This document shows positions 4,154 to 39,083 of a stretch of DNA of 43,546 nt, piece by piece; within the stretch, counting starts at the first letter, position 1; every line of letters starts with the position of its first letter. Under the pieces are notes generated by a model. It saw nothing but the letters and a program-made list of their open reading frames with translations. It did no database searches and had not been told where the DNA came from. Position numbers and translations under genes: made by a program. Origin of the DNA: Cytophagales bacterium (lineage in GTDB: Bacteria > Bacteroidota > Bacteroidia > Cytophagales > Microscillaceae); contig JAAFJG010000038.1 in NCBI GenBank assembly GCA_013298075.1, forward strand, positions 1 through 43,546, given 5' to 3'.

Positions 4154-4585
4154 TTATTTTGATAATTCTTTTCTAATTTGATCTATCTCGAAAATAGATA
4201 AATTAGTAATTTGATGAATAGTTTGATTATCCAATCCTAAATGAATACAGTTAATAGCGTTAATTTTATTTGCTCGTTTTACGCCTTTTTCCAAACCAAC
4301 TATTTCGCCTTTTTGAAAACCAATTACTTCGCCTTTTTGAAAACCTTCTTCACGATAAGTAATCATAGAATTTTTTAAATCTCTATAACTTTTTAAACTA
4401 TCTTCATAAGCCAACATCTCTTCAGAGGAATAGTTGGCAATTTCTGCAATCTCAAATACTTCCATAAATATACCTTGGTTTAAAATTTCGGGGGCATCTT
4501 CAAAATTTGAAATATTTTTTAGAATATACAACCATTTATCATAATCACTTTCGAGTTCATTTATGGTTTTAGTAAAATTAGGCAT
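4154..4585 (-). CDS. Free-standing C-terminal module of the Rpn/TIGR01784 nuclease (possible inhibitor, or a relic)
   Basis: About 143 residues starting MPNFTKTINELESDYDKW, almost identical to the C-terminal part of the neighbouring full nuclease. It lacks the catalytic N-terminal domain. The frame is open further upstream to an ATG at 4684, but the promoter box at 4644-4651 lies inside that stretch, so transcripts should begin downstream of it and the first usable ATG is at 4585. The deletion that removed the nuclease domain put the parent gene's promoter directly before the tail. It carries one extra octapeptide (GFQKGEVI) compared with the parent. In E. coli Rpn systems a C-terminal product made from an internal start inhibits the full-length nuclease. 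Whether this copy does so is inference; it could simply be a decaying duplicate. Confidence 0.6.
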   Translation of the reverse strand: MPNFTKTINELESDYDKWLYILKNISNFEDAPEILNQGIFMEVFEIAEIANYSSEEMLAYEDSLKSYRDLKNSMITYREEGFQKGEVIGFQKGEIVGLEKGVKRANKINAINCIHLGLDNQTIHQITNLSIFEIDQIRKELSK

Positions 4586-4643
4586 TTCTAAATAAATAAA
4601 ACGCAATTTATCATAAAATATTTTATTCGTTTGTAAGCATTTA

Positions 4644-4651
4644 CAAATATA
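4644..4651 (-). promoter_or_regulatory. Promoter -7 box of the truncated Rpn copy
   Basis: CAAATATA on the + strand reads TATATTTG on the minus strand. It is the duplicated equivalent of the parent promoter at 5773-5780, with identical surroundings. Confidence 0.6.
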
Positions 4652-4677
4652 AAAGTAAATATTTTTTGCTAATATAA

Positions 4678-4703
4678 TTGTCAATGTACCAAATATTTGA
4701 CAA
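4678..4703. repeat. TTGTCAA/TTGACAA hairpin
   Basis: A 7-bp stem with a 12-nt loop, duplicated at 5807-5832. It uses the same stem bases as the larger hairpins at 7161-7205 and 7284-7328. Confidence 0.6.
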
Positions 4704-4720
4704 TTTCAGGTTTGCATTTT

Positions 4721-4757
4721 TCGGAGTTTATCAAATCTAAAATATTGACAAACTCCA
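4721..4757. repeat. GGAGTTT/AAACTCC hairpin between the two Rpn copies
   Basis: Second boundary copy of the palindrome, followed closely by the 3' end of the full-length nuclease gene. Confidence 0.6.
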
Positions 4758-4773
4758 AAAAAATTATCAAAAA

Positions 4774-5721
4774 TTATTTTGATAATTCTTTTCTAATTTG
4801 ATCTATCTCGAAAATAGATAAATTAGTAATTTGATGAACAGTTTGATTATCCAATCCTAAATGAATACAGTTGATAGCGTTAATTTTATTTGCTTGTTTT
4901 ACGCCTTTTTCCAAACCAACTATTTCGCCTTTTTGAAAACCTTCTTCACGATAAGTAATCATAGAGTTTTTTAAATCTCTATAACTTTTTAAACTATCTT
5001 CATAAGCCAGCATCTCTTCAGAAGAATAGTTGGCAATTTCTGCAATCTCAAATACTTCCATAAATATACCTTGGTTTAAAATTTCGGGGGCATCTTCAAA
5101 ATTTGAAATATTTTTTAGAATATACAACCATTTATCATAATCACTTTCGAGTTCATTTATGGTTTTAGTAAAATTAGGCATTTCTAAATAAATAAAACGC
5201 AATTTATCATAAAATATTTTATTCGTTTCGATATTTAATAACATCACATCATGCTTGACCTGATTTCCTTCGCTTTCTTCTCCAATCGCATCAAATTTAA
5301 AATCCATCACAGCAATCGTATAAACATTTGCTAATTCGTAATTCCAAACAAAATCAGGTTCTCCGCTTCCTTTTTCGGCTTTTTTGTCTTTTTTTGCTTG
5401 CGATAAAATCACACTTGACGCATAAAAAACACCTCTATCTTTGAAATATTTTTGTTTTGCTTTTTGCATTTCGATAATAAAATGCTCGCCTTTTTCATTC
5501 TGACAATACAAATCAAAAATAGATTTTCTATCTTTTTCTTGTTTGCCCAAATGTTCATTTTTAAGGTATTTAATTTTAGTGATTTTAACATCAACCAATA
5601 AAGTATTCAAAAAATTGATGAGTAATTTCTTATTTACTTCTTCGCCAAACAACTTTTTAAAACCAAAATCTGTAAAGAAATTGATATATTTGCCCAATTT
5701 TTCTTCTGTTTTCTTTGCCAT
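4774..5721 (-). CDS. Rpn family / TIGR01784 PD-(D/E)XK nuclease
   Basis: A 315-residue protein beginning KYINFFTDFGFKKLFGEE, the usual opening of the TIGR01784/PDDEXK_2 family often mislabelled as transposase. The nuclease core is visible at SIFDLYCQNEKGEHFIIEMQ (about residues 67-86): the Asp of FDLY and the E-x-Q of IEMQ match the family's D...ExQ variant. The C-terminal ~140 residues form a helical region with octapeptide-like repeats (GFQKGEIV, GLEKGVKQ) and a closing helix-turn-helix-like segment. E. coli Rpn proteins are DNA endonucleases with antiphage and recombination effects. The gene has a good promoter 51 nt upstream and a truncated tandem copy downstream. Confidence 0.85.
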   Translation of the reverse strand: MAKKTEEKLGKYINFFTDFGFKKLFGEEVNKKLLINFLNTLLVDVKITKIKYLKNEHLGKQEKDRKSIFDLYCQNEKGEHFIIEMQKAKQKYFKDRGVFYASSVILSQAKKDKKAEKGSGEPDFVWNYELANVYTIAVMDFKFDAIGEESEGNQVKHDVMLLNIETNKIFYDKLRFIYLEMPNFTKTINELESDYDKWLYILKNISNFEDAPEILNQGIFMEVFEIAEIANYSSEEMLAYEDSLKSYRDLKNSMITYREEGFQKGEIVGLEKGVKQANKINAINCIHLGLDNQTVHQITNLSIFEIDQIRKELSK

Positions 5722-27483: not shown

Positions 27484-27987
27484 TTACTTTCTATCTTTTA
27501 AAATTTTTCTTACTTTTTCAGCTTGACTTTTAATTTTTCCTGCTGATTTTCTTGATAAACTAAAGGTAGAAAGTTCCTTATCGTCATCAAACATTCCATC
27601 GTTATTTTTATCGTCTTTCATTTTAAAAGTTTCCGATTTTGTTTTTTCGGTATAGATTTTTTTCATTTCGGTCAATTCTGGTTTTGCTTTGCTCAAAGCG
27701 GGGCAATTATCAGCCAAAACAATCAATTCATCTAAATCTTTTTCCATTTCTAACAAGGACATCACTTGCGGTCCGCCGCCTTTTCCTGAGCTTGCTTTTA
27801 ATTTGTCGCAAGTTTCTGATACTTTTCCTAACCAAGAACCAATGCTAAAATTGGGTTTAATTCGGTTTACTTTGTCTTGATTTTCAGAAATACATTGTTG
27901 GATTGGTCTGTCAATCGTAGGATTACTTTGTGCTTTTAATGCGTAGGTAGTGAGGCAAAAAGCGACACAAATAAATATTTTTTTCAT
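27484..27987 (-). CDS. Secreted protein with an EF-hand-like acidic loop
   Basis: A 167-residue protein of unrecognised family. Signal peptide MKKIFICVAFCLTTYALKAQ. The segment ADNCPALSKAKPELTEMKK is shared with the gene just upstream (SCEHLKKAKPELDALKK there), so the two are paralogues. A calcium-loop-like stretch, DDKNNDGMFDDDKE, is present here but missing in the paralogue. The C-terminus is basic and helical. It probably forms an operon with the paralogue (21-nt gap). Confidence 0.7.
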   Translation of the reverse strand: MKKIFICVAFCLTTYALKAQSNPTIDRPIQQCISENQDKVNRIKPNFSIGSWLGKVSETCDKLKASSGKGGGPQVMSLLEMEKDLDELIVLADNCPALSKAKPELTEMKKIYTEKTKSETFKMKDDKNNDGMFDDDKELSTFSLSRKSAGKIKSQAEKVRKILKDRK

Positions 27988-28008
27988 TGGATTTTTTTAA
28001 TTTTTATT

Positions 28009-28521
28009 TTATAAACGAATAATTACCTGCGTAATTGCCATTTTCTTTCTAAATTTTTCTAAAACTTTTAACATTGCTTCTGTGTCTTCTTTTTTCATAG
28101 AAATTTTTCCTGTTCCTTTTCCATCAGAAAATACGTCTGCTCCTTCTGAGCCATCTTTTACTTTGGTTTCGAATATTTTTTTGAGTGCATCTAATTCAGG
28201 TTTTGCTTTTTTGAGATGCTCACACGAGTTTGCCAAATTGGCTAATTCGATGGCTTTTTTCTTTTCATCTGAAATATTTCCTACATATTCAGAGGTCATT
28301 CTTTGCGAAGTTTTTTTACAAAAATATTGTAATCGTGCTGTCCAATCTGCTAATTGAAAATCTTGTTCTAAGATTGTATTATCTTTTAAACAAGTTTTGA
28401 TTTGCGTTTCTAATTCTTTTTCTACTTTTGTAGGACGATTTTTTACGTCATAAGTAGTTTGTGCTATCAATAAAAGTTGTCCAAAATGGTACAACATACA
28501 AATAAGAAATATTTTTTTCAT
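28009..28521 (-). CDS. Secreted protein, paralogue of the neighbour
   Basis: A 170-residue protein starting MKKIFLICMLYHF, with a signal peptide ending near IAQ. The frame stays open seven codons further to 28542, but the MKK start is typical of signal peptides here. It has three Cys residues, of which CEHLKKAKPELDALKKIF aligns with the downstream paralogue. Where the paralogue has an acidic loop this protein has GADVFSDGKGTGKISMKKED. Function unknown. Confidence 0.7.
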   Translation of the reverse strand: MKKIFLICMLYHFGQLLLIAQTTYDVKNRPTKVEKELETQIKTCLKDNTILEQDFQLADWTARLQYFCKKTSQRMTSEYVGNISDEKKKAIELANLANSCEHLKKAKPELDALKKIFETKVKDGSEGADVFSDGKGTGKISMKKEDTEAMLKVLEKFRKKMAITQVIIRL

Positions 28522-28542
28522 AAATAAAAATAAGTAAAACAA

Positions 28543-36082: not shown

Positions 36083-36844
36083 TTAAAAAGATTGTGCAAT
36101 CGTAATAAAATCTCTTGATTTAAGAGATGCTCCACCAATCAAACCGCCATCAATATCTGCACAAGCAAATAATTCTTTTGCATTTTGAGGATTGCAACTT
36201 CCACCATATAAAATAGAAATATTTTCAGCAATTTCTTGCGTATAGGTATGAGCAATATGTGTTCTTAGGTAGGCGTGCATTTCTTGTGCTTGGGCAGAAG
36301 AAGCCGTTTTTCCTGTGCCTATTGCCCAAATTGGTTCGTAAGCAATCACAATTTTTTGAATATCTTCTGTAGATAAATCAAACAATGATTCTGTGATTTG
36401 TTGAGCCACATATTCTAAATGTTTGCCTGATTCTCTAATAGTTAAACTTTCGCCACAACAAAAAATAGGAGTAATACCGACTTCTAATAATAATTTTGTT
36501 TTTTGTGCTAATTGTTCAGAAGTTTCATTAAAATATTCACGTCTTTCGCTATGCCCAATAATTGTATATTGCACGCCGACAGATTTTAACATATCTACAG
36601 AAGTTTCACCTGTAAAAGCACCACTTTTTTGGTGATAACAATTTTGCGAACCCAAACGAATATTAGAATTTTGTGGAATAAGTTTTTGTAACGAATTCAA
36701 ATGAATAAACGGAGGATTTATCACTAAAATTGCTTGATTTTTGAGTTCATCTTTAGCAATATTGATAATTTCAGAGGTAAGAGCCAAACCTTCTTCAAAG
36801 TTTTTATTCATTTTCCAATTACCTGCAACAATTTTTTTTCTCAT
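36083..36844 (-). CDS. tpiA: Triosephosphate isomerase
   Basis: A 253-residue (beta/alpha)8 enzyme interconverting dihydroxyacetone phosphate and glyceraldehyde 3-phosphate. Substrate residues are in AGNWKMNK, the catalytic His in TIIGHSERREYF, the catalytic Glu in AYEPIWAIGTGKTAS (hinge of loop 6), and the phosphate loop in LIGGASL. Length is standard. It is the first gene of the operon with PGI/PMI. Confidence 0.97.
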   Translation of the reverse strand: MRKKIVAGNWKMNKNFEEGLALTSEIINIAKDELKNQAILVINPPFIHLNSLQKLIPQNSNIRLGSQNCYHQKSGAFTGETSVDMLKSVGVQYTIIGHSERREYFNETSEQLAQKTKLLLEVGITPIFCCGESLTIRESGKHLEYVAQQITESLFDLSTEDIQKIVIAYEPIWAIGTGKTASSAQAQEMHAYLRTHIAHTYTQEIAENISILYGGSCNPQNAKELFACADIDGGLIGGASLKSRDFITIAQSF

Positions 36845-36880
36845 AATATATAATAATTTTCCTTTAAAATAAGTGTCAAA

Positions 36881-36918
36881 AAAATAATACGATACACATT
36901 TTTTGTTGTATTATTTTT
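36881..36918 (-). terminator. Second AT-rich hairpin before tpiA
   Basis: AAAATAATAC pairs with GTATTATTTT, between the Rpn terminator and tpiA; function uncertain. Confidence 0.45.
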
Positions 36919-36932
36919 GAGTTAAGAATATG

Positions 36933-36980
36933 AAAATATCATTCTAAAAAAGCAAAATTTTGTTCTTAGAATGATATTTT
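36933..36980 (-). terminator. Terminator of the second Rpn locus
   Basis: AAAATATCATTCTAA pairs with TTAGAATGATATTTT (15 bp, 18-nt loop), 6 nt past the stop of the small tail gene in the minus direction. Confidence 0.85.
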
Positions 36981-36986
36981 TGATGA

Positions 36987-37190
36987 TTATTTTTTAGCAT
37001 TTTGTTTAATGATTTCAATTACTTCTTGTTCTGTAATATCATAAGAATGAGCAATATCAGAAACTTTTATTTTCATATCATTCATTTTTAAAATACATCG
37101 CCTGCGTTCTTGTTCACGCCCTTTTTTGATACCTATTTCCATACCTTCAAGATATCGAATATCGGTTTCTATATCATATTCAAAAGCCAT
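36987..37190 (-). CDS. Free-standing C-terminal module of the second Rpn-type nuclease (RpnS-like candidate)
   Basis: A 67-residue protein, MAFEYDIETDIRYLEG then KKGREQERRRCIL then a helix-turn-helix-like end (MKIKVSDIAHSYDITEQEVI). It repeats the last ~75 residues of the gene just upstream, which contains the same MAFEYDIETDIRYLEG stretch internally. Its start lies 5 nt after the upstream stop. The 15 bases before its ATG (AAAAAATAAATATT) are identical to those before the internal ATG of the long gene, so a working internal initiation site appears to have been copied with the module. In E. coli a short product from such an internal start (RpnS) blocks the full-length nuclease. The inhibitor role here is inferred. 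Confidence 0.7.
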   Translation of the reverse strand: MAFEYDIETDIRYLEGMEIGIKKGREQERRRCILKMNDMKIKVSDIAHSYDITEQEVIEIIKQNAKK

Positions 37191-37195
37191 AATAT

Positions 37196-38086
37196 TTATT
37201 TTTTGGTATTTCGCTTGATGATTTCGATAACTTTTTGTTCTGTAATATTGTAAGAATGAGCAATATCAGAAACTTTTATTTTCATATCATTCATTCTTAA
37301 AATACCTCGCTCGCGCTCTTTTTCAGTGCCTATTCCCACACCTTCTTCACGCCCTATTCCCACACCTATTTCGATACCTTCAAGATATCGAATATCGGTT
37401 TCTATATCATATTCAAAAGCCATAATATTTATTTTTTGTTTAATTGTTTTCTGTAAATTTCTTAAATTTGATAAAACTTCTAATTGTTTGACGCATTTTT
37501 GTTTTTTGTCAAAAGTAACATCTATTTTAGAGATTTTATTAAGAATAATATCCACTATATTTTCGGGAGTTTGTCCTTTATAATCGGCTAATATTCCCAA
37601 AATAATCACTTCAGGAACATCAGAATTAATAAAATTATTAACGTCTATTTCCTGAAAATTAATCAATTTATAACGGAAATCTAACCCTTCATCTTTGATA
37701 AAAGTAATCATTTTTGATTTCCCTTTCCCCAAATAAATAACGTATTGTCTAATCGGAATATTGTGTAAAGTTCGAATGAAAGCTTGATAAAAATTCATTC
37801 GAAGTTGCATCGTTAAATGCTCTTTCACCTGAAATTCTACGTGCAAAATAAAATCATCAGCAGGATTTTTATGTTTTATTTTGGCTATAAAATCTGCCTC
37901 TGTTTCTAAAGTTTTTTGTAAAGCAGGCAGAATATACTCCATTTCTGTATTTTCTACATCAACTTGAAATAATTGCTTAAAAAAAGGTTTGATGGTTTCA
38001 ATCAAATTTTCCTTTAAAATTTTGTCATAAGCATTGGCATATTTCTTTTTTAAATTTTCGTCTGGCTCTAAATTTTCTTGGTTCAT
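37196..38086 (-). CDS. Rpn-type PD-(D/E)XK nuclease, second locus
   Basis: A 296-residue protein whose nuclease core is ADFIAKIKHKNPADDFILHV followed by the E-x-Q of VEFQ (about residues 63-86). Conserved features continue with NFYQAFIRTLHNIPIRQYVI. Residues ~220-296 form the tail MAFEYDIETDIRYLEG, two octapeptide-like repeats (GVGIGREE, GVGIGTEK) and a C-terminal HTH-like segment. An ATG in the tail (37424 on the minus strand) could give a 77-residue short product. A partial copy of the tail follows as a separate gene. No clear promoter box was found. Confidence 0.8.
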   Translation of the reverse strand: MNQENLEPDENLKKKYANAYDKILKENLIETIKPFFKQLFQVDVENTEMEYILPALQKTLETEADFIAKIKHKNPADDFILHVEFQVKEHLTMQLRMNFYQAFIRTLHNIPIRQYVIYLGKGKSKMITFIKDEGLDFRYKLINFQEIDVNNFINSDVPEVIILGILADYKGQTPENIVDIILNKISKIDVTFDKKQKCVKQLEVLSNLRNLQKTIKQKINIMAFEYDIETDIRYLEGIEIGVGIGREEGVGIGTEKERERGILRMNDMKIKVSDIAHSYNITEQKVIEIIKRNTKK

Positions 38087-38116
38087 ATTTTTATAAAAAT
38101 ATCTTAGTTGTATAAA

Positions 38117-38151
38117 AAACCTATACGTTTTTTTGAAAAACTTATAGGTTT
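38117..38151 (-). terminator. Terminator downstream of ispH
   Basis: AAACCTATA pairs with TATAGGTTT (9 bp), with flanking T/A runs. Confidence 0.75.
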
Positions 38152-38186
38152 ATAATTATTTTTTATTTTTGTTTATATCAATTTAA

Positions 38187-39083
38187 TCACTCACAAACTT
38201 CCAAATCATAAATTCTTTCCACAAAATCCGCTACTTGTTGCATCAACCAATTAGGCGTAGAAGTTGCTCCACAAATTCCTACTGATGAATTTTCTTGAAA
38301 CCAACTGACATCAATTTCAGTTTCATTTTCAATAAAATAACTTTGAGCGTTATTTTTTTTGCATACTTCAAATAATGCTTTACCATTCGAACTTTTTTTA
38401 CCACTCACAAACAAAATAATATCATATTGTGTCGAAAAAATGGTTAGTTGCGGCTCACGATTCGAAACTTGTCTGCAAATACTATCATTTGCCTCAAAAT
38501 ATTGTTCTGTATTATTAGAATTTTTTATTCTTTCTTCTATTTTACTTTTAATATGATAAAATCCTTCGGTACTTTTAGTCGTTTGGCTAAAAAGTTCGAT
38601 AGGTTTTGAGAAGTCAATTTTATCCAAATCTTCTTCATTGCTCACGATAATTCCTTCGTTATTAAGTTGTCCATTCAACCCAATAATTTCAGCGTGTCCT
38701 TCTTTTCCATAAATAACAATTTGTCCTTTTTTTTGCGTTACGGTATCATTATAAGCATTTTTGATACGATTTTGAAGTTTCAAAACCACAGGACAAGAGG
38801 CATCAACCAATTCAATATTATTTTTTAAAGCAATTTGATACGTTTCAGGAGGTTCGCCATGCGCTCTAATCAATACTTTACAATCAGTTAATTTTTGTAA
38901 ATCTTCTCTTGATATAATTTGCAAGCCTTTTTGGTGCAATCGTTTTACTTCCATATCATTATGAACAATATCGCCCAAACAATATAGATTTTTACTGTCC
39001 TCCAATTCTGCTTCTGCCATTTCGATAGCATATTCAACGCCAAAACAATAACCCGAATTTTTATCTATTGTTACTTTTATCAT
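38187..39083 (-). CDS. ispH: 4-hydroxy-3-methylbut-2-enyl diphosphate reductase
   Basis: A 298-residue iron-sulfur enzyme, the last step of the non-mevalonate isoprenoid pathway (HMBPP to IPP and DMAPP). The three cluster Cys are C13 (SGYCFGVEYA), C97 (VDASCPVV) and C203 (NDSICRQVSNRE). Substrate motifs are the IVHN and RAHGEPP histidines, FSQTTKSTEG, and SGKKSSNGKALFE. It follows a small secreted-protein gene after 11 nt, so the two are co-transcribed. Confidence 0.96.
   Translation of the reverse strand: MIKVTIDKNSGYCFGVEYAIEMAEAELEDSKNLYCLGDIVHNDMEVKRLHQKGLQIISREDLQKLTDCKVLIRAHGEPPETYQIALKNNIELVDASCPVVLKLQNRIKNAYNDTVTQKKGQIVIYGKEGHAEIIGLNGQLNNEGIIVSNEEDLDKIDFSKPIELFSQTTKSTEGFYHIKSKIEERIKNSNNTEQYFEANDSICRQVSNREPQLTIFSTQYDIILFVSGKKSSNGKALFEVCKKNNAQSYFIENETEIDVSWFQENSSVGICGATSTPNWLMQQVADFVERIYDLEVCE

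Follow-up and report, generated by a model that had tools for sequence, protein, structure and literature searches.

Free-standing copies of the nuclease tail recur behind genes for Rpn-like nucleases in Bacteroidota, where they appear constrained as a class, and they do not keep step with the number of four-residue repeats carried by the nuclease itself. At some loci, the free tail and the nuclease tail are also mosaics of one another. Our best, if still tentative, explanation of these patterns is that the free tails would serve as alternative tail cassettes, exchangeable with the nuclease tail via a duplicated start block, rather than as matched extra inhibitor. The case that led to this proposal is a nuclease gene (L) and an adjoining tail gene (S) in the window, by which we mean the whole 43,546-nucleotide stretch of Cytophagales bacterium DNA that was analysed (contig JAAFJG010000038.1). 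The features of the locus are as follows.

37196..38086, minus strand: L, encoding a putative Rpn-like nuclease of 296 aa with an ATG start, a PD-(D/E)XK-like N-domain containing D65, E84 and Q86, and a C-terminal tail.
37196..37423, minus strand: in-gene tail of L, a putative RpnS of 75 aa, with an internal ATG at 37423.
36987..37190, minus strand: S, a free-standing tail gene of 67 aa with an ATG start, equivalent to the C-terminal tail of L.
37374..37438, minus strand: start block copy 1, comprising 15 nt upstream and the first 50 nt of the in-gene tail.
37141..37205, minus strand: start block copy 2, the same sequence as copy 1, holding the L stop codon (37196-37198) and the ATG of S.
36930..36980, minus strand: A+T-rich hairpin 3' of S (-17 kcal/mol, z -6.1; inverted-repeat pair I4), where the joint transcription of L and S probably ends.
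36845..38186, no strand assigned: stretch with L and S between tpiA and ispH, absent in two genomes of the same genus.

The sequence-only reading that drew attention to this locus had proposed that S begins at a Met that also lies inside L, that both ATGs are preceded by the same 15 nt and that the genes are 5 nt apart. Each of these statements is borne out, as S is equivalent to the tail of L read from its internal ATG, the gap from the L stop codon to the ATG of S is 5 nt, and the identity upstream continues for 50 nt into coding sequence. The result is a perfect 65-nt direct repeat with a spacing of 233 that covers both starts (the run was taken from two printed copies of repeat family D2, which is 97 nt long at 93% identity), and it excludes a chance origin for the likeness of the two tails. 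The 15 nt upstream of the second ATG include the stop codon of L. The same reading had placed the start of S at 37190, where it is found, and the internal start at 37424 on the minus strand, where the ATG is present but lies one position away, at 37423. Its proposal that the tail had been copied together with its start is accurate for the start block; the remainder is not a plain copy, since the in-gene and free tails share 82% of their 67 aligned residues and S lacks 8 residues, or two 4-aa repeats. An imperfect inverted repeat (37246-37304, 77%) lies inside the L tail.

The locus shows an internal start predicted to yield a C-terminal tail, in the form of a start codon whose Met (M222) is invariant in all 22 members of the L alignment (A2) and whose counterpart is present in 105 of 107 Rpn-like genes in a wider set. 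Helix 1 of the tail contains 4-aa repeats that vary in number, and, as in E. coli rpnE/ypaA, there is a separate downstream gene equivalent to that tail. Neither RNA folding nor a G+C-based scan found a terminator at the L/S junction, which fits one transcript, and the two genes are apparently co-transcribed; the G+C-based scan of 36800-38300, whose rule would miss A+T-rich terminators, found none in that interval. The genes flanking the pair, which we take from their sequences to be ispH and tpiA, adjoin each other without L and S in both other genomes of the genus, separated by 110 nt (G001) and 77 nt (G002) according to their coordinates, with the junction sequence itself compared in G001 alone. 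The simplest reading is therefore that the pair was gained in the lineage of the window. Elsewhere in the window (27484-28542, minus strand), two adjoining genes encode secreted-looking proteins of 167 and 177 aa that by eye resemble tandem paralogues.

The active site of the Rpn PD-(D/E)XK nuclease fold has the form D...ExQ, and D65, E84 and Q86 are invariant across all 22 L proteins of the alignment. The window L scores 18.1 bits against TIGR01784, below the cut-off of 52.1, so the curated Rpn family model is not passed, and no Pfam family was matched at E 0.01. TIGR01784 is matched at E <= 0.01 by 17 of the 22 alignment members, the window L included (best 1.2e-11), and PF04754 was found in one of the 22. 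Because L falls below the TIGR01784 cut-off and has no Pfam match, yet its relatives match TIGR01784, we refer to it as Rpn-like. The AF2 model of L (pLDDT 77.9) matches EndoMS, PaqCI, McrC and HJC at Z 4-6, values not clearly above those of unrelated rows; its first half resembles PD-(D/E)XK nucleases and its tail a resolvase helix-turn-helix at Z 4-7, values that carry little weight by themselves. The model of S is weak (pLDDT 68.1) and contains three helices. Neither the sequence matches nor the fold matches listed included RpnA-S (PDB 7TH0 according to PMC10327210), where a weak or missing match is uninformative.

The arrangement at the window locus recurs in related bacteria. Tail matches were present in nine of the 15 genomes of the family that were searched, and of the 105 related nuclease genes whose tail start could be read, 30 have at least one free tail downstream, a biased frequency because most genome loci were chosen for holding tail matches; a complete free tail is present in 29 of those 30, and there are 34 complete L-S pairs in total. 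The 105 genes came from 61 loci in the genomes and from 62 out of a set of 80 named loci, the other 18 having been left out as duplicates of genome loci (16) or because they run off contig ends (L129, L134). At the 62 kept named loci, which were chosen by their nuclease, a free tail is found at ten, one of which (L150) has only a partial copy, and tail pieces at L143 and L158 were excluded by filters. Partial copies also lie behind an L at G010:C10 and G005:C75, and start-less pieces occur at other loci. All 34 complete free tails begin with ATG. Most free pieces from the genome loci start close to the position of the internal start: on a 279-position nuclease model, 44 of 53 rows begin within positions 182-216, a few of the rows being longer or decayed and some belonging to other Rpn genes. 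The 15 nt upstream are identical in 13 of the 34 complete pairs and differ by at most one mismatch in 17, while the other 17 have at least two differences; for example, the free tail of C13 starts behind a different upstream sequence. The largest array, at G000:C93 (L009 1656-2598), consists of a single nuclease gene followed by four free tails. The 30 nt before the nuclease's internal start recur before the starts of tails one to three, whose own sequences differ. With 75 TIGR01784 matches in 4.7 Mb, including tandem nuclease genes (C5, C143, C104), the genome of the window (G000) shows a large Rpn expansion. The window itself contains a second Rpn gene (4154-5721, minus strand), of the curated family (PF12784, TIGR01784), followed by a 176-aa partial copy that is 93.7% identical over 479 nt and has a tail longer by 24 nt, or two 4-aa repeats.

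Repeat number is where nuclease and free tail most often part. The length from the tail-start Met to a conserved IA is unequal in 29 of the 34 Bacteroidota pairs from the same locus, and in 19 of those 29 the difference is a multiple of four. Differences of this kind can be seen between tails that are otherwise the same: the aligned residues are 100% identical at G005:C15, where the free tail is 8 residues shorter, and at G000:C13, where it is 12 longer, and they are 99% identical at G000:C14, where it is 4 shorter. Eight further stretches of the window's genome were chosen for adjoining tail matches (L208 held only a partial piece and L211 none), and all six complete pairs found there, most of them from other Rpn clades and one of them the 4154-5721 pair of the window, are unequal by 4 or 8. 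In E. coli rpnE/ypaA, the lengths are unequal in all 24 sampled strains with a free gene, which represent nine distinct length pairs; this sample consisted of 25 matches chosen for differing span or identity plus K-12 (24 of the 26 with the free gene) and was drawn from two 60-row lists spanning 5371 records. In 4750 E. coli genomes, the best match covers at least 80% of the K-12 locus.

This mismatch needs no selection, since repeat number is hypervariable everywhere: even close pairs of nuclease genes are equal in length in only 5 of 63 cases. The idea that E. coli avoids equal repeat numbers was considered and rejected as not significant, the expected number of matches being 0.55 for the nine distinct pairs (P 0.55) and 2.3 for the 24 strains (P 0.06). 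The Bacteroidota pairs are equal more often than shuffled pairs (5 vs 1.2, P 0.006) and their lengths are correlated (0.51), which is what common descent would give. Among 14 young L-S pairs, three are equal in length, most clearly G000:C110a, whose two tails differ at a single residue of 86.

The free tails nevertheless appear to be maintained as genes. In the 26 of 34 L-S pairs with a synonymous difference below 0.45, dN/dS is ~0.11 over the start block (first 16 codons) and 0.43 over the remaining C-block, and the C-block value is 0.74 when free tails are compared with each other (50 pairs) and 0.61 for nuclease tails (63 pairs), comparisons that are on average more diverged than the L-S pairs. 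A neutral simulation at the observed synonymous distances predicts that 7.1 of 34 free tails would be open, whereas all 34 are, a set that was picked as complete, with three partial copies left out of the test. Judged by these rates and frames, the free-tail genes are constrained as a class. These observations bear on the possibility that S is debris, left when the end of the gene was recently duplicated in tandem and still to decay. Broken tail pieces certainly exist, at G010:C10, G005:C75 and L150 and in start-less form elsewhere, yet the excess of open frames over neutral drift (even for a set chosen as complete), the ATG start of all 34 and the low dN/dS of both blocks make this account very unlikely.

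Some tails also look as if nuclease tail and free tail had been swapped. The nuclease bodies of C93 and C107 are 92% identical (up to 200 residues) while their tails differ. Each nuclease tail has its likeness at the other locus, that of C93 in the free tail of C107 and that of C107 in the first free tail of C93. In this quartet, the informative sites of the start block group by locus (3 of 3) and those of the rest group crosswise (16 of 16). Over the rest of the tail, six of the 34 free tails are at least 5 points nearer to the L of another locus (45 sites for their own L, 182 for the other), and in these six the start block favours their own L by 20 sites to 6; only the start-block figure counts as a test, because the six were selected on the rest of the tail. 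Two of these six candidates have no start-block effect and three involve the same two loci. Across the same 26 pairs, the start block has fewer synonymous differences within a locus than the C-block (ratio 0.64, bootstrap 0.43-0.90), whereas the ratio is 1.22 between nuclease genes and 1.28 between nucleases and the free tails of other loci (the nuclease comparison also includes gene pairs within one locus). Constraint on translation signals alone was rejected as the whole cause of this likeness, since the start block is not synonymously conserved between genes, and the pattern points to homogenisation or crossover within loci. A cassette exchange like that of CDI systems, at a conserved seam, may underlie the C93/C107 mosaic and the pooled start-block signal, and none was seen at the window's own L/S locus. 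In E. coli, both strains read that lack ypaA have an RpnE with a ypaA-type C-terminus and the ypaA 3' flank; these single-tail strains may be ancestral, not fused.

Two other explanations assign the free tail an inhibitory function. The sequence-only reading took S for extra inhibitor, which would add RpnS against the neighbouring L and would require that repeat number be irrelevant in this clade. In its favour, the start is conserved, S is intact and probably co-transcribed behind the same start region as the in-gene tail, the C-block dN/dS of 0.43 in 26 pairs indicates constraint, and three of the 14 young pairs, with G000:C110a the clearest, are equal in length. The two-repeat mismatch at this locus tells against it, and given the unequal lengths in 29 of 34 Bacteroidota pairs and in 24 of 24 E. 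coli strains, together with the repeat rule described for RpnC-S in the parts of PMC10327210 considered here, we regard it as unlikely. A free tail could instead be an archive of immunity that neutralises nucleases of other repeat number (earlier forms, paralogues or incoming copies), as orphan CdiI proteins may do against neighbours. Beyond the start block, 11 of the 34 free tails are indeed nearer to the L of another locus than to their own, and the genome has 75 TIGR01784 matches. However, when compared with the 36 retrieved L genes of G000, G005, G009 and G010, only 6 of 31 free tails find in their own genome an L that equals them in length and reaches 70% identity over the C-block (2 of 13 in G000, 3 of 11 in G005, 1 of 4 in G009 and 0 of 3 in G010), and two of those are their own L, so this function also seems quite unlikely. 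The sequences of C93 and C107 make cross-immunity between the two attractive, but the idea was rejected because their repeat numbers are unequal. One scan of viral contigs, made with the tail alignment and with patterns that fit this tail type only, confirmed no relative, which counts against the archive and led us to reject a phage-borne inhibitor.

The cassette explanation is preferred because it accounts together for the mismatch, the mosaics and the common start block. According to this proposal, L would be an Rpn-type nuclease whose own tail (RpnS) is made separately from the internal start, and S would be a second tail in the same operon with a different repeat number, which makes it more like an alternative tail than an extra antidote. 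Recombination between the start-block copies could then place the free tail on the nuclease, and since each cassette has its own start codon at the front, the swapped nuclease would at once have a matched intragenic inhibitor. For the window locus, we infer that both tails would be translated and inhibitory, that S would be non-cognate to L and that swapping would be used rather than incidental. A broader claim, which we hold more loosely, is that free RpnS genes are non-cognate as a rule and form a store of tails from which nucleases might be re-tailed across the start block, switching repeat number and partner specificity safely; no dangerous intermediate would arise, because every cassette has its own antitoxin start. 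The repeat rule behind this non-cognate reading comes from one E. coli protein, RpnC. Several findings given above also tell against the cassette explanation: the hypervariable repeat number, the excess of equal Bacteroidota pairs over shuffled ones, the looser C-block of free tails when compared with each other, the mosaic candidates that lack a start-block effect and the pairs with two or more upstream differences. Should free tails prove to be mismatched alternatives, it would be wrong to regard them, K-12 ypaA included, simply as spare antitoxins, and this toxin-antitoxin family would gain a built-in, safe way of changing specificity.

The comparison of S with E. coli RpnS made by the sequence-only reading proves apt, as the same arrangement is published for rpnE/ypaA and rpnC: the portions of Zhong et al. 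(PMC10327210) considered here describe separate RpnS genes that follow rpn genes, so the L-S arrangement was already known and the window is another case of it. Those portions also report that the tail inhibits its own nuclease with cognate specificity, that adding one 4-aa repeat to RpnC-S leaves RpnC no longer counteracted, and that RpnE/ypaA-type fusions exist; in them, the questions of how the 4-aa repeats change and how downstream RpnS copies arise are left open. No later work on free-standing RpnS was found among the literature matches listed, as judged by title or the start of the abstract and with subscription papers mostly outside the scope. K-12 ypaA has one 4-aa repeat more than the RpnE tail, is 88.6% identical over the matching 140 nt and has the Shine-Dalgarno region copied. 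RefSeq labels the RpnE of K-12 as inactive and ypaA as a pseudogene, and across the sample (L179 2317-2502; L180-L204) ypaA is annotated as a pseudogene, incomplete or a hypothetical protein, yet it is open in 24 strains.

Like rpnE/ypaA and rpnC/RpnC-S, as far as those excerpts describe them, the window has a nuclease gene with an internal tail start and a second tail gene just 3' whose start signals have been copied. Unlike K-12, where the start has a Shine-Dalgarno sequence, the window start is A-rich; the nuclease domain is only distantly similar to that of the E. coli Rpn proteins (PF04754), and the Bacteroidota set includes arrays of up to four free tails, unlike E. coli rpnE/ypaA. In this respect it is reminiscent of the orphan cdiA-CT/cdiI modules, which in the sections of PMC3150448 considered are alternative C-terminal modules arrayed downstream behind a conserved seam and interchange with the main gene, as is proposed here for free tails; a deletion that joined an orphan module to cdiA is described there (PMC3150448). 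CDI systems exchange a toxin tip and its immunity gene, whereas the tail considered here would be both the putative inhibitor and the specificity part of an intracellular nuclease, and no homology is claimed. A further likeness is offered by EcoR124I/EcoR124II, a restriction system unlike Rpn, for which the cited passage names no free-standing tail genes and in which the number of 4-aa TAEL repeats sets specificity (cited in the same portions of PMC10327210), much as repeat number may do in Rpn tails.
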